A DNA stretch of 64,000 nt from Cyanocohniella sp. LLY (GTDB lineage Bacteria > Cyanobacteriota > Cyanobacteriia > Cyanobacteriales > Nostocaceae), in assembly GCA_022241785.1 (NCBI GenBank), contig JAKOMP010000001.1, forward strand, positions 1-64,000, given 5' to 3'. This document shows, one piece after another, positions 16,833-56,335 of this stretch (the first letter of the stretch is position 1; each line of letters begins with the position of its first letter). The position numbers and the translations under genes were made by a program. Below the pieces are notes generated by a model, which did not search any database, was not told where the DNA came from, and saw only the letters and a list, made by a program, of their open reading frames with translations.

Positions 16833-17765
<933 letters not shown>

Positions 17766-18425: not shown

Positions 18426-18431
18426 TCCGGA
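18426..18431 (-). promoter_or_regulatory. TCCGGA (DIF+ type) motif upstream of hetR
   Basis: TCCGGA is the -35-like element reported for heterocyst-specific promoters in Anabaena PCC 7120. Here it lies about 695 bases before hetR. Read on the minus strand, CATAGT follows after 18 bases as a possible -10. Confidence 0.4.
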
Positions 18432-18603: not shown

Positions 18604-20841
18604 TCAAGTTTCGGAACTAGAAGTTTTCACCTGGTTCCGCATTTTCTCAAAGCTGTAAGCGGCGACTCCAAAAGTAACGAACAATACTCCCATGATTTGC
18701 ACAATAGCTAAGGTTTCTTGAAGTATCAAACCAGCAAAAACCACGGTGAGAATTGGCACGCCTGCACCGATAATCGCTGATCGTAATGCGCCTAGTTTGC
18801 GAATTCCGACATTGTTCAGCACATAGCCGACTAAAGTTAAAACGCCCAAAATAAAGGCACTTAAAACAAGTTCTAGCAATTTGGACTGGTCAACTGCCAA
18901 ACTTAAATCTCTTGGTAAAGGCAACATCAATCCAATAAAGCTCAATATAAACATTGTGCTGAAGTTAATTAATGTAAAAGATACCGGATGAATTTTAGCG
19001 GCACAAACTCGTGTCAAAATCACGTAGCAAGCGAAGGCTACTCCAGCCAAAATTGCTGTACTGGTTCCTAGTGTGAAATTTGCAGTACCTAGTCCAGCAG
19101 AGCCTCCCATAACTAACAATTCACCACAGAAAATCGCCCCGATCGCAGCAGCACGAAATCCATTAAGCTGATCGCGGAACAGCAACCAAGAGAAGATTCC
19201 ACTCACAATGGGGTAGACAAAGAAAAGTGCGATCGCCATGCCTGTGGCTACCTGACTGATGGCAAGATAGATGAGTACTTGGGATACAAACAAAAAGCAT
19301 CCACTAGCGATGGACAATTGCAAAAATTTTTGGGTCTTTAAATTACTATTGGAAGTAGAACTGCCACGTGTTGATGTCACCAGGTTTTGCATATCTTGCC
19401 ATACTTGGGGATGCATCATAGGTGCTAAAAGGATCATGAGTGGCACAACCACTAGCAATCGCAGCGTCAAAATTAAAAATATATTCCCTAAAGTTGGCGA
19501 AATTAGCCCCTGTATTTCTAAAACTCCTAAATTATCGTAAGCCTTAAAGAACATACCTTTGATGGCTACGTTGTACAGCGATGAAACCACTGTTGACAAT
19601 ACAACCAGTAAGAAACCGATCTGGATTGACGATATTTTTGAGGAGCTAGGTGACTGTGGTGATACAGGTTTTGCTCTTTGATTAGTTGCTGTCTGTGATG
19701 GGGATTGGCGATCGCGTCTCAAGTCTTCTCGACTGAGGACAGAAATTGGCTCTGGGGGTGTTTCTGTCTGTGATGGGGATTGGCGATCATCTTCCCAGTC
19801 TCGGCGATTAATCACAGAAGTTGTTTCCGGCGGTATGTTTGGCGACGATGTAAATTGGCGATCGCTTTCCCAGTCTTCACGATTAATCACAGAAGTTGGT
19901 TCTGGTGGTGGTGGAGATTGGCGATCGCTTTCCCAGTCTTCACGATTAATCACAGAAGTTGGTTCTGGTGGTGGCGATTGGCGATCGTCTTCAGCTAAAT
20001 TTCCCGGAAAAATGGAAATAGACTCAATAATTCTGCCCGACTCTGGCGATTCAGTATCGGGTTGTGAAATTTCCCTGCTGATGACAGAAGTTGGCTCGGT
20101 GGTATTGGGATTGCTAAATGGCAATACATTTCCCGTGTTGCTCTGGGATAAGTTTTCTGTGCTGCTTTGAATCTCTCCCACCTGTAGATATGTTTGTGGG
20201 GAACTGGGCTGATATGGCTCAGTCGGTTGCAAAACAGTAGGCGGCGATGTTGTGGCTTTTAGGGAAATTTCTTTGGTGGCTTTAACTAGTTCCCCTTGTA
20301 GGTGATTGATCAATTCCTCTACAATGGCTTCCCCTTGTTGTTGTTGACTTTGCATCCGCGACAACTGTTGGGAAAGAGTAGTTTGATAGTTTTTTATCTC
20401 CTGCTGTAAAGAATTAAAAGTAATGGTGAGCGTATCATCCAAAGAACCAAGCATTTGTTCGGTATTTTCATTTTGATTCCCTACCGACTTCAGTTGGGAA
20501 TTACCTCCGCCGGATTGGCTAGTTAAATTTGCCAGCGACGATTGCAGTTGTGAAGATATATGTTTTGCCAGAGCTTCTGACAACTGACGGATTAACACTT
20601 GTTGCTCAGTAATTTGCCGTACCTGTTGTAGGTGTTCCTTTTCTTCTAACAACTGTTGAATGTCATCAGATAAACGGCTTTTTTGCGCTTGCAGTTGTTT
20701 TATTTCGTCCTGCAAGGATTTGAGCATATTCCGCTGGAGACTTTCCAAATCTTCTACAACAGCCCATAAAGCTGTTTCTGCTGCTCTGGATAGCTCGCCT
20801 CTGACTTGCGGGTTGTCTGGTCGCTTCTCAAATCGCCCCAT
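18604..20841 (-). CDS. EamA/DMT-family transporter with long coiled-coil and repeat-rich N-terminus
   Basis: A 745-residue protein in three parts. Residues 1-200 are Gln/Glu/Leu-rich coiled coil (for example LQDEIKQLQAQKSRLSDDIQQLLEEK). Residues 200-405 are disordered Pro/Ser/Thr-rich sequence with about five imperfect copies of a unit like PTSVINREDWESDRQSPPP. Residues 408-735 hold about ten membrane helices in two EamA halves, as in drug/metabolite transporters. Plain EamA transporters are about 300 residues, so the front half is a large cytoplasmic extension. It lies 870 bases upstream of hetR on the same strand. The substrate is unknown; the extension might anchor or scaffold the transporter. 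Confidence 0.8.
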   Translation of the reverse strand: MGRFEKRPDNPQVRGELSRAAETALWAVVEDLESLQRNMLKSLQDEIKQLQAQKSRLSDDIQQLLEEKEHLQQVRQITEQQVLIRQLSEALAKHISSQLQSSLANLTSQSGGGNSQLKSVGNQNENTEQMLGSLDDTLTITFNSLQQEIKNYQTTLSQQLSRMQSQQQQGEAIVEELINHLQGELVKATKEISLKATTSPPTVLQPTEPYQPSSPQTYLQVGEIQSSTENLSQSNTGNVLPFSNPNTTEPTSVISREISQPDTESPESGRIIESISIFPGNLAEDDRQSPPPEPTSVINREDWESDRQSPPPPEPTSVINREDWESDRQFTSSPNIPPETTSVINRRDWEDDRQSPSQTETPPEPISVLSREDLRRDRQSPSQTATNQRAKPVSPQSPSSSKISSIQIGFLLVVLSTVVSSLYNVAIKGMFFKAYDNLGVLEIQGLISPTLGNIFLILTLRLLVVVPLMILLAPMMHPQVWQDMQNLVTSTRGSSTSNSNLKTQKFLQLSIASGCFLFVSQVLIYLAISQVATGMAIALFFVYPIVSGIFSWLLFRDQLNGFRAAAIGAIFCGELLVMGGSAGLGTANFTLGTSTAILAGVAFACYVILTRVCAAKIHPVSFTLINFSTMFILSFIGLMLPLPRDLSLAVDQSKLLELVLSAFILGVLTLVGYVLNNVGIRKLGALRSAIIGAGVPILTVVFAGLILQETLAIVQIMGVLFVTFGVAAYSFEKMRNQVKTSSSET
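19700..19995. repeat. Tandem coding repeats phased by GCGATCGC-like sites
   Basis: DNA units of 60-75 bp encode the TSVINREDWE-DRQSP repeats. Each unit carries GCGATCGC or a one- or two-base variant, at 19708, 19783, 19858, 19921 and 19981 (spacings 75, 75, 63, 60), so the DRQS codons coincide with the HIP1 octamer. Confidence 0.8.
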
Positions 20842-26251: not shown

Positions 26252-28036
26252 ATGGTGCATCAGACATATACAGCAGATATCTTAGTTGTGGGTGGCGGAA
26301 CCGGAGGAACAGCTGCGGCTATCCAAGCGGCGCGACGGGGAGCGAAAACTATTTTGGTGAGTGAATTTCCTTGGTTAGGGGGAATGCTCACCTCTGCGGG
26401 GGTATCTGCACCAGACGGTAATGAATTAATGGCATTTCAAACTGGATTATGGGGAGCATTTTTACAAGAATTGCGCCAGCGTCAGCCAGGAGGATTAGAT
26501 AATAGTTGGGTGAGCTTCTTTAGTTATGATCCCCGTGTTGGGGCAGAGATTTTTGCAGATTGGGTGCAGAAATTATCAAATCTGCATTGGATTGCTGGAA
26601 AGGTGCCTTTGGAAGTATTGCAACAAGGGAATTGTATAACTGGTGTGCGCTTTGCAGATTTCACAATTACAGCCAAGATCATTCTCGACGGTACAGAATT
26701 AGGGGATTTATTGGCTTTAGCAGAGATACCTCACCGTTGGGGGTGGGAGTTGCAATCTGAGTTGGGAGAAGCAAGCGCCCCAGCAGAGTTTAATCATCTC
26801 ACAGAGAAATATCCAGTGCAAGCGCCGACTTGGGTAGTAGTTATGCAAGACTTTGGTGAAGCCGATGCCCCAGAAATTCCTGCTGCACCTACTTATGATG
26901 CATCGTTTTTTGCTGGTGCTTGGGATGATTATGGCCCAGAGAAATTTTTGAATTATGGGCGTTGGTCAGGAGGTCATTTTATGATTAACTGGCCTATCTG
27001 TGGCAATGACTATGCTGAAGGAGTGAGACGATTAATCAAGTCAGAACAAGATAAACAAGAATTTTTCCAAGAATCCCGCTTGCATAGCCAAAATTTTGCT
27101 CATTTTATCCAAAAAAACTTGGGTAGACGCTACGGTTTAGCGGAGTCAGTCTTTCCCTGTAACCATAGTGCTTTTGCATTGCATCCTTATTACCGCGAAA
27201 GTCGCCGTTTGGTGGGATTAACTACTGTGCGAGAACAGGATATTTTGCCCATGAGGGGGGGTAGGGTAGCATCTCTATTCCCCGATACCATTGCGGTGGG
27301 TAACTATGCCAACGACCATCATTATCCTGGGTTTGATTTACCACTACAACCTAAATCTATCCGCTGGGGGGGACGTTGGACTGGTACACCCTTTACGATT
27401 CCCTATCGGTGCTTGATTCCCGCTGTTACAGATGGTTTATTAGTTTGTGAAAAGAATATTTCTGTATCTCATATTGCCAATGGCGCGACTAGATTGCAAC
27501 CTGTGGTTATGGGTATCGGTCAAGCGGCGGGAATGGCTGCGGCTATGTGCGTTGAGTTGAACTGTCAGCCGAGAGATTTACCTGTTAGGCAACTACAAGA
27601 AGCTTTGTTAAAAGATTTACAAGCTCCTGCAACAATTATACCTTTATTTAATTTAGATTTATCACCTAAATATCCGGAATGGCTTAATTGGCAGGCGTAT
27701 TACTTAAATGAAACCCAAGCTTATCCATTAAATGGCAATCACCCTAATTCATCTTTAGATAAGTACTATTACGTAGAAGATAATTCAGTGTTAACACGGC
27801 AGAGCGACTGTTTTACAGGCGCTTTTCAGCGTCTAAATCAGCAGGATTACCGATTCACGATCGCAACGCCAGAGGCTTATCATGGACAAACTTGGCAGAT
27901 TGTAACTTGGCGATCGCATATAGATGAGCAGCTACAAGCCGCTGTAAATGGGCAAATTCTGACTATTTGGGGCCGCATGAATCATTCTGGTCAATGGTTA
28001 TTAGCTGAAAAAATTGAATGCGTATCGTTAAAGTAG
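26252..28036 (+). CDS. FAD-dependent oxidoreductase (FAD_oxidored family)
   Basis: A 594-residue flavoprotein. The start at 26252 is chosen because AGAGGGG stands seven bases before the ATG; a TTG 24 bases upstream is also in frame. The FAD motif is ADILVVGGGTGGTAAAIQAARRG, followed by FPWLGGMLTSAGVSAPDG, as in the PF12831 family. Near the end of the catalytic part is a second FAD-contact region, ISVSHIANGATRLQPVVMGIGQAAGMAAAM. A C-terminal segment of about 120 residues, seemingly a small beta-rich domain, follows. The substrate is unknown. Its stop lies just 39 bases before the TCCGGA motif of patX. Confidence 0.8.
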   Translation: MVHQTYTADILVVGGGTGGTAAAIQAARRGAKTILVSEFPWLGGMLTSAGVSAPDGNELMAFQTGLWGAFLQELRQRQPGGLDNSWVSFFSYDPRVGAEIFADWVQKLSNLHWIAGKVPLEVLQQGNCITGVRFADFTITAKIILDGTELGDLLALAEIPHRWGWELQSELGEASAPAEFNHLTEKYPVQAPTWVVVMQDFGEADAPEIPAAPTYDASFFAGAWDDYGPEKFLNYGRWSGGHFMINWPICGNDYAEGVRRLIKSEQDKQEFFQESRLHSQNFAHFIQKNLGRRYGLAESVFPCNHSAFALHPYYRESRRLVGLTTVREQDILPMRGGRVASLFPDTIAVGNYANDHHYPGFDLPLQPKSIRWGGRWTGTPFTIPYRCLIPAVTDGLLVCEKNISVSHIANGATRLQPVVMGIGQAAGMAAAMCVELNCQPRDLPVRQLQEALLKDLQAPATIIPLFNLDLSPKYPEWLNWQAYYLNETQAYPLNGNHPNSSLDKYYYVEDNSVLTRQSDCFTGAFQRLNQQDYRFTIATPEAYHGQTWQIVTWRSHIDEQLQAAVNGQILTIWGRMNHSGQWLLAEKIECVSLK

Positions 28037-28074
28037 TTTTTTTTCAGTAAAACACACTACTTTTTTAAAAAATT

Positions 28075-28080
28075 TCCGGA
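28075..28080 (+). promoter_or_regulatory. TCCGGA (DIF+ type) promoter motif of patX
   Basis: TCCGGA lies 58 bases before the patX start, where a -35-like element would be expected. This is the motif reported at heterocyst-induced promoters of Anabaena, and patX genes are described as carrying it. A clear -10 at 17-18 bases is not obvious. Confidence 0.6.
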
Positions 28081-28137
28081 CACACCACAAGAAATTAAGT
28101 AGCTCTAAATAAGAAAGTTTAAAAATAGACATTTGTT

Positions 28138-28359
28138 ATGCGAGCTACAATTTCCCTTTTAGTGTCTAGTCTGGTGTTCAGTACCTTAGCTTTTAATTGC
28201 CAAGCTAAAGTAAATCGTGCGTCTGAGATATTACTTTCACCTTCTGGTTCACAACAATATCAAGCTCAATTTAGTGAACCAGAAAGACCAGTACCACATC
28301 GGGGTAGTGGACGCAGAGATTTCATGGAAAAGTCTAGTGCAAATGCTTTTAATTCGTAA
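28138..28359 (+). CDS. patX: PatX-family RGSGR precursor peptide (heterocyst patterning inhibitor)
   Basis: A 73-residue secretory precursor. Residues 1-23 form a signal peptide (MR, hydrophobic core LLVSSLVFSTLAF, cleavage near CQA). A polar linker leads to HRGSGRRDF, with R55-G-S-G-R59 identical to the active pentapeptide of PatS. PatX proteins, described as widespread partners of HetR in filamentous cyanobacteria, have exactly this plan: N-terminal export signal and near-C-terminal RG(S/T)GR. The product would release a peptide that moves between cells and inhibits HetR. A TCCGGA motif lies just upstream. The tail after RGSGR is 14 residues. hetR is about 10 kb away. Confidence 0.88.
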   Translation: MRATISLLVSSLVFSTLAFNCQAKVNRASEILLSPSGSQQYQAQFSEPERPVPHRGSGRRDFMEKSSANAFNS

Positions 28360-55651: not shown

Positions 55652-55657
55652 TCCGGA
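55652..55657 (+). promoter_or_regulatory. Second TCCGGA (DIF+ type) motif upstream of patS
   Basis: TCCGGA about 625 bases before the patS ATG, 105 bases after the first. TAGAGA follows after 19 bases as a weak -10. A start near 55690 would give a leader of about 590 bases. Confidence 0.5.
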
Positions 55658-56281: not shown

Positions 56282-56335
56282 ATGAAGACAACAATGTTAG
56301 TGAATTTTCTGGATGAGCGTGGTAGTGGCAGATAG
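56282..56335 (+). CDS. patS: PatS heterocyst-inhibitory peptide (17 residues)
   Basis: A tiny gene, ATG at 56282 to TAG at 56333, that encodes MKTTMLVNFLDERGSGR. The Anabaena PCC 7120 PatS is [17 protein letters not shown], so 14 of 17 residues agree, including the full C-terminal ERGSGR that binds HetR and blocks its DNA binding. The internal Met5 at 56294 gives the 13-residue form. PatS is made in developing heterocysts and its C-terminal peptide spreads to neighbours to prevent them from differentiating. The next gene, tsaE/hetY, is convergent 280 bases away, the same arrangement as asl2301 (patS) and alr2300 (hetY) in Anabaena, as I recall. Two TCCGGA motifs lie upstream. The gene is far too short for ordinary gene callers. 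Confidence 0.97.
   Translation: MKTTMLVNFLDERGSGR

Follow-up and report, generated by a model that had tools for sequence, protein, structure and literature searches.

HetR is the master switch for nitrogen-fixing cells (heterocysts). The window, that is, the whole 64-kb stretch of DNA analysed here, carries hetR together with two short open reading frames (ORFs) whose products contain the pentapeptide RGSGR (Table 1). One of these, at 28138-28359, had been proposed to encode an exported, PatX-type precursor about 10 kb from hetR. Re-reading the ORF confirmed the coordinates, strand, length of 73 residues, HRGSGRR motif and 14-residue tail (RDFMEKSSANAFNS) given in that original prediction; the complete 73-residue translation is MRATISLLVSSLVFSTLAFNCQAKVNRASEILLSPSGSQQYQAQFSEPERPVPHRGSGRRDFMEKSSANAFNS.

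Table 1. Positions of hetR, patX, patS and associated sequence elements in the window.
Feature	Position	Strand	Remarks
hetR, presumed PatX target	16833..17732	-	NCBIfam HetR equivalog, 625.2 bits (cut-off 489); 10.4 kb from patX
FAD-dependent oxidoreductase (PF12831), usual patX flank	26252..28036	+	Upstream neighbour; matched in 46 of 50 listed loci
NtcA-type box GTAN8TAC	28047..28060	+	28 bp upstream of DIF1; starts 91 bp before ATG
DIF1 motif TCCGGA	28075..28080	+	63 bp before patX ATG
patX CDS	28138..28359	+	73 aa, stop included; NCBIfam NF047413, 80.4 bits (cut-off 30)
Export-signal-like N-terminal segment MRATISLLVSSLVFSTLAFNCQA	28138..28206	+	Residues 1-23, predicted cut site; hydropathy, conserved in relatives
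Inhibitory hexapeptide HRGSGR codons	28297..28314	+	Residues 54-59; RGSGR in 49 of 50 listed homologues
Tail after RGSGR	28315..28356	+	14 residues; length 2 to 43 among listed homologues
DIF1 motif upstream of patS	55652..55657	+	CTATCCGGATTTTT context
patS, no export signal	56282..56335	+	17 residues MKTTMLVNFLDERGSGR, stop included; C-terminal RGSGR

Identity of the patX ORF

By its sequence the ORF is patX, a member of an already described cyanobacterial gene family. We assign it in this way because it matches the NCBIfam equivalog model heterocyst_PatX (NF047413; 80.4 bits, the cut-off being 30, aligned over residues 1-61) and because HetR, itself recognised by an NCBIfam equivalog, lies 10.4 kb away; the curated model and the distance both bear out what had been predicted. 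HRGSGR occupies residues 54-59 of 73, near the C-terminus, with prolines just ahead of it (EPERPVPHRGSGR). The N-terminus is Sec-signal-like, as originally proposed, with export and cleavage predicted. This reading follows from its Met-Arg start and hydrophobic core (best 10-residue Kyte-Doolittle mean 2.47), from the conservation of the segment in homologues, and from a model match that begins at residue 1. The closest named matches were a Nodularia MAG (96% over residues 1-27, at a contig end), Nostocales cyanobacterium LEGE 11386 (75%) and Chrysosporum bergii (66% over residues 1-59). No Pfam family matched the ORF.

The ORF does not have the form of a PatS, which is very short, ends in ERGSGR and has no export signal: it is 73 residues long and starts with a signal-like segment, and its RGSGR is preceded by His and followed by 14 further residues. 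When all six frames of the 64 kb were scanned, RGSGR occurred exactly twice, at 28300 in patX and at 56318, the latter being the C-terminus of the PatS ORF at 56282-56335 and thus the second, separate inhibitor that had been expected. The chance rate of RGSGR was a mean of 0.1 and a maximum of 1 per sequence in 60 first-order Markov simulations of 64 kb each, and in none of the 60 did it follow an in-frame Met-basic-hydrophobic start.

hetR and patS in the window

HetR of the window keeps all six of the residues (R223, E253, E254, D256, D270 and D278) implicated in binding of PatS6 (Hu 2015, PMC4649674). TCCGGA is found at 18426-18431, 699 bp upstream of the hetR ATG, and no GGGN5CCC HetR site was present within 1 kb upstream of hetR. 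The adjoining ORF on the minus strand (18604-20841), which we take to encode an EamA-like protein, contains the repeat PE[PT][IT]SV[IL][NS]R four times at 19729-19968, before its membrane part.

In 8 of 12 patS loci, including that of the window, the CTATCCGGATTTTT DIF1 context precedes the DERGSGR codons by 636-669 bp. A search of the window's own genome for HetN-like ERGSGR gave nine pattern matches, of which seven were one repeated sequence, one was patS and one was without in-frame RG[ST]GR. A wider RGSGR pattern with AGY serine codons gave 17 matches, and the 15 besides patX and patS included none that was inhibitor-like by eye. HetN was not found in this genome by these motif searches, which cover the motif with Glu ahead of RG or with AGY serine codons.

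The patX promoter and upstream region

Among 50 listed homologues (the set is described below), an exact DIF1 motif was present 62-66 bp before the ATG in 47, at 63 bp in 42, 62 bp in four and 66 bp in one. The exact form was absent from the other three, two of which carry TCCGGG at 62-63 bp. An exact NtcA-type box was found at -89 to -92 in 29 of the 50, 27-30 bp upstream of DIF1. Since GTAN8TAC occurs 20 times in the 64-kb window, the evidence here is the fixed position and not the box alone. Promoters with DIF1 in front of patS, patX and hetR depend on hetZ (PMC7377430), and control of patX by NtcA and HetR has been published (PMC7377430, PMC7761841, PMC7476756).

The 26 bp immediately before the patX ATG (28112-28137) were also conserved, with 1.61 bits per column compared to 1.05 at the third positions of codons 3-20, as computed from the 42 leaders with DIF1 at -63. 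The upstream oxidoreductase is, by position, the usual neighbour of patX in this family. A 6-phosphogluconate dehydrogenase beside patX was matched only in close relatives among the 50 listed loci.

Conservation of PatX

The 50 distinct PatX proteins comprise the window's own, 29 from a 60-genome search, 16 from a 149-genome profile search and four from a named genome collection that was searched with a single PatX protein and gave 10 loci. The 60-genome search matched 32 genomes and the profile search 108; as loci were taken from 30 of the 32 and the best 30 of the 108, the set leans towards closer homologues. Left out were L075 (protein identical to another in the set), L081 (an archaeal record, taken as spurious), L079 (27 residues at a contig end), L072, L074 and L077 (contigs already represented, going by their length) and those loci of the 149-genome search whose genomes were already included. 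The compilation required RGxGR, and this requirement excluded no locus.

RGSGR was found in 49 of the 50 listed homologues and RGGGR in one. Homologues that keep the ORF and lose RGSGR had been named in the original prediction as evidence against it, and one such case is too rare to overturn the reading. This exception (L010, in G035) is a PatX orthologue with YRGGGR, in which GGA as third codon differs from AGY by two changes or more; its genome has a canonical PatS. The residue before the pentapeptide was His in 42, Tyr in seven and Phe in one, and the residue after it Arg in 31, Lys in 12 and another in seven. Eight weaker homologues outside the 50 all have RGSGR. In the PatX of G031 RGSGR has shifted upstream and the usual place reads HRGEGR; four proteins (L023, L027, L115 and L120) have a second, degenerate motif copy (KGGSRR, HRGEGR or HRGSDR) beside an intact RGSGR.

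Six codons are in use for the first Arg of RGSGR in the 50 listed homologues, and two or more at every other position, as expected under selection at the protein level. Compared to L002, patX has a pS of 0.26 and a pN of 0.09, and the amino acids of the hexapeptide are unchanged; over L002, L003 and L070, pS is 0.26-0.53 and pN 0.09-0.14. These comparisons of coding sequence support selection on the PatX protein.

The tail after RGSGR

Among the listed homologues, the tail is 14 residues long in 33 of 50, at most 8 residues in nine and 42-43 residues in two. A remnant of the old tail could be read by eye in six of the nine short-tailed homologues, lying behind the stop codon in L021, L028, L071, L076 and L080, and in another frame in L003. 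Single truncations may possibly be sequencing errors, some of the genomes being MAGs. In G026 (L021) and its congener G096, the PatX profile matches both read through one TAA. We judge that the tail is retained in many lineages yet is not indispensable, six homologues having it truncated through a stop codon or a frameshift.

AFSPSNSQNMISLK and GPDIIFWAHDR have been reported as the peptides that flank HRGTGR when an E. coli reporter carries MBP as its C-terminal partner (Xu 2025, PMC12756182). We found that GPDIIFWAHDR lies inside maltose-binding protein, the fusion partner, and not in PatX, so it is no evidence of a cut at PatX's own C-terminal side. The discussion in that paper claims only one cut, 27 residues before the motif, and calls the precise sites open. 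It reports that PatX is processed by the peptidase PatP (Alr1666), which is tabulated elsewhere as penicillin-binding protein PBP10, under cell wall synthesis (PMC7766704); the PBP10 entry suggests that Alr1666 is a PBP/beta-lactamase-like hydrolase. In the structure of the HetR hood with PatS6, Arg223 is very close to the C-terminal carboxyl of the peptide (PMC4649674), which makes a requirement for a free C-terminal Arg structurally reasonable. The PatX tail would then be removed in vivo.

Co-occurrence and arrangement of patX, hetR and patS

HetR was present in all 89 genomes examined from the window's family (36 + 53), and patX was matched in 84 of them, the weakest match having an E value of 1.1e-5. 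Because all 89 have HetR, the family comparison says little about an association of patX with hetR. Outside the family (G036-G059), patX was matched in 11 of 12 genomes with HetR and in one of 12 without, counting matches at E up to 0.1, some of them weak (down to E 0.08). The one genome without HetR, G043, has a patX-profile match of E 3e-5 in a 206-residue frame.

Of 60 genomes searched, 12 have a canonical PatS ([DE]ERGSGR-stop), among them the window's own, and 11 of these 12 also have a patX match (the exception is G032); PatX and PatS in one genome are thus ordinary and not special to this segment. A distance of about 10 kb between patX and hetR is likewise common in the family, since the starts of the two genes are no more than 16 kb apart in 38 of the 84 genomes with a patX match; they lie farther apart on one contig in 16 and on different contigs in 30, most of these unresolved. 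Among the 12 patS genomes, hetR, patX and patS within 40 kb were seen only in the window: this arrangement is absent from G003, G025, G028, G032 and G034, which are resolved, and fragmentation prevents a judgement on the remaining six.

Genomes with hetR and without patX

Five hetR genomes of the family had no patX: G017 and G088 (genus g18), G032 and G101 (genus g33), and G105, which is 88% complete. In all five the matches to NF047413 fell far short of the cut-off, and 12 of 14 control genomes gave matches of the same kind. The usual patX site after the oxidoreductase held no patX-like ORF in G032 (L111), G101 (L121), G017 (L119) or G088 (L114), each rated 100% complete. In G046 and G057, patX is missing from this site and is found elsewhere in the genome. 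A leader-pattern search for the missing patX gave no match, and the same pattern also missed the window's own leader, so this result is uninformative. Presence and absence of patX in hetR genomes have already been tabulated (Xu 2025, PMC12756182), and what is added here is the empty usual site; the observations on the leader, the neighbouring gene and patX loss may already be in Elhai and Khudyakov 2018.

The g33 genomes G032 and G101 both have a canonical PatS. A second RGSGR mini-ORF in G032 was rejected, as it is not kept as a C-terminus in the related G101. In G017 no canonical PatS was found in the 60-genome search. The search with AGY serine codons revealed two related mini-ORFs sharing the leader TTGTAGATGGAATT in both g18 genomes (L216/L221 and L217/L228). 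The last residues of copy a are DDRGSGR in both species, those of copy b DRGSGR in G017 and DRGSGRFNR in G088. These putative ORFs are possibly a divergent PatS pair, and they lie outside a patS neighbourhood of the window's type. Copy b contains a GCGATCGC-like sequence, presumably a common cyanobacterial repeat, which weakens it as a PatS candidate. TCCGGA was absent within 1.6 kb upstream of either mini-ORF in G017; in G088 it occurs 1433 bp upstream of copy a and 663 bp upstream of copy b, where it is unlike the patS promoter and looks like a chance occurrence. A further putative ORF in G088 (L226) ends in MECNCYGERGSGRYKYLNLILN, with GERGSGR and a 9-residue tail. It is likely to be a tailed relative of patS, because the TCCGGATTT...TGTAGAGAATGAATACGGG stretch 327 bp ahead of it is very similar to the patS DIF1 promoter.

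Proposed mechanism

The best explanation of the locus is that the mechanism published for PCC 7120 applies to the window's PatX orthologue, to which we give a probability of roughly 0.88. From the identity, motif, promoter elements, target residues and conservation described above, we infer expression, export, processing and movement as follows. On nitrogen starvation, NtcA and the HetR/HetZ pathway would turn on patX in prospective heterocysts through the DIF1 promoter, as the conserved sites suggest; such activation has been shown by others in Anabaena/Nostoc PCC 7120. PatX would then pass via Sec to the periplasm, where proteases may strip off the N-terminal part and the tail and so free HRGSGR or a slightly longer peptide. 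The freed peptide would enter vegetative cells and occupy the cleft of the HetR hood domain (Glu253, Asp270 and Asp278), with its C-terminal carboxyl near Arg223. HetR with bound peptide would leave the DNA and differentiation would be held back. PatS, with its own DIF1 promoter and without an export signal, would provide an almost identical ligand within the cytoplasm, and the two would therefore overlap.

According to PMC12756182, HRGTGR binds HetR with a Kd of 88 nM and blocks DNA binding, and overexpressed PatX without its signal sequence no longer blocks differentiation in Nostoc PCC 7120. The latter result backs the suggestion, made in the original prediction, of different routes for PatX and PatS. 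As counterpoints, PatX-sfGFP stayed cytosolic in Nostoc (PMC12756182), and PCC 7120 lacking only patX showed no phenotype when combined nitrogen was absent (PMC7761841). The homologue with RGGGR, the five hetR genomes in which no patX was seen and the patX-profile match in G043 also count against the proposed mechanism, as do the impaired signalling and the Leptolyngbya transcriptomes described below.

Alternative readings

PCC 7120 PatX has been described as impaired in cell-cell signalling, a section of the same source being headed 'patX is Impaired in Cell-Cell Signaling and Acts Cell-Autonomously', and a patX mutant makes heterocysts in nitrate or ammonia medium (PMC7761841). PatX might thus act mainly in the producing cell, damping HetR in nitrogen-replete cells with no intercellular signal. 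We consider this unlikely, if worth keeping in mind, as an exported precursor fits a signal that leaves the cell, PatX activity requires export, and added HRGTGR acts from outside (PMC12756182, PMC7476756). It is more doubtful that the tail stays on and that PatX works with an internal RGSGR in the manner of HetN, whose internal RGSGR is needed for its activity (PMC7761841). The 14-residue length in 33 of the 50 listed homologues, retained in many lineages, and the origin of the published tail-side peptide in MBP would suit such a reading. However, PatX without its signal showed no two-hybrid interaction with HetR whereas the hexapeptide bound at 88 nM (PMC12756182), the C-terminal carboxyl of the peptide sits beside Arg223 (PMC4649674), and several lineages have the tail cut.

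That PatX mainly regulates something other than HetR is very improbable. Transcriptomes of Leptolyngbya BL0902, in which the effects of patX on transcription were basically independent of HetR (PMC11298460), speak for it, but patX matches track hetR outside the family (11 of 12 genomes with HetR and one of 12 without), HRGTGR binds HetR, and overexpression of hetL restores heterocysts (PMC12756182, PMC7476756). A chance ORF with a chance motif, which the shortness of the ORF and its lack of a Pfam family might bring to mind, has a negligible probability and is refuted by conservation: the ORF matches a curated PatX model, has 50 distinct listed homologues, is under purifying selection and has a conserved promoter. 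RGSGR also arises only 0.1 times per simulated window.

Wider implications

The Nostocaceae genera g18 and g33 (four genomes) appear to have lost patX and keep hetR with PatS-like ORFs, and PatX tails elsewhere have eroded towards a C-terminal RGSGR. On these grounds we suggest, tentatively and with rather more doubt than confidence, that the export route is replaceable: selection may keep the HetR ligand and not the precursor or its route, cytoplasmic mini-peptides having replaced the exported precursor at least twice. Two results have a broader use: the natural truncations of the tail, which bear on the need for a free C-terminal Arg, and the hetR genomes that are apparently without patX yet keep PatS-like ORFs. 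The window, in which 39.5 kb take in hetR and two inhibitors with different routes, offers a compact bacterial example of activator-inhibitor patterning.

Comparison with known systems

The window's ORF resembles the PatX family (NF047413; Elhai and Khudyakov 2018, as described in citing papers) in its signal-like N-terminus, (H/Y)RG(S/T)GR close to the C-terminus with prolines ahead of it, DIF1 promoter and co-occurrence with hetR. PatX of PCC 7120 differs in having RGTGR and 56 residues (PMC12756182), compared to RGSGR and 73 residues here. PatS shares RGSGR, a DIF1 promoter and the same target with the window's PatX, but has 17 residues, no export signal, and RGSGR at the very C-terminus after Glu. 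The 'Alternative PatS' of Mastigocladus is a short protein with Y/HRGSGR after a proline-rich stretch, as in PatX (PMC5812504); it has been termed a PatX orthologue (PMC7761841), and the difference appears to be one of name only. HetN likewise contains RGSGR and restrains HetR (PMC7761841), but unlike PatX it is a reductase-like protein in which RGSGR is internal.
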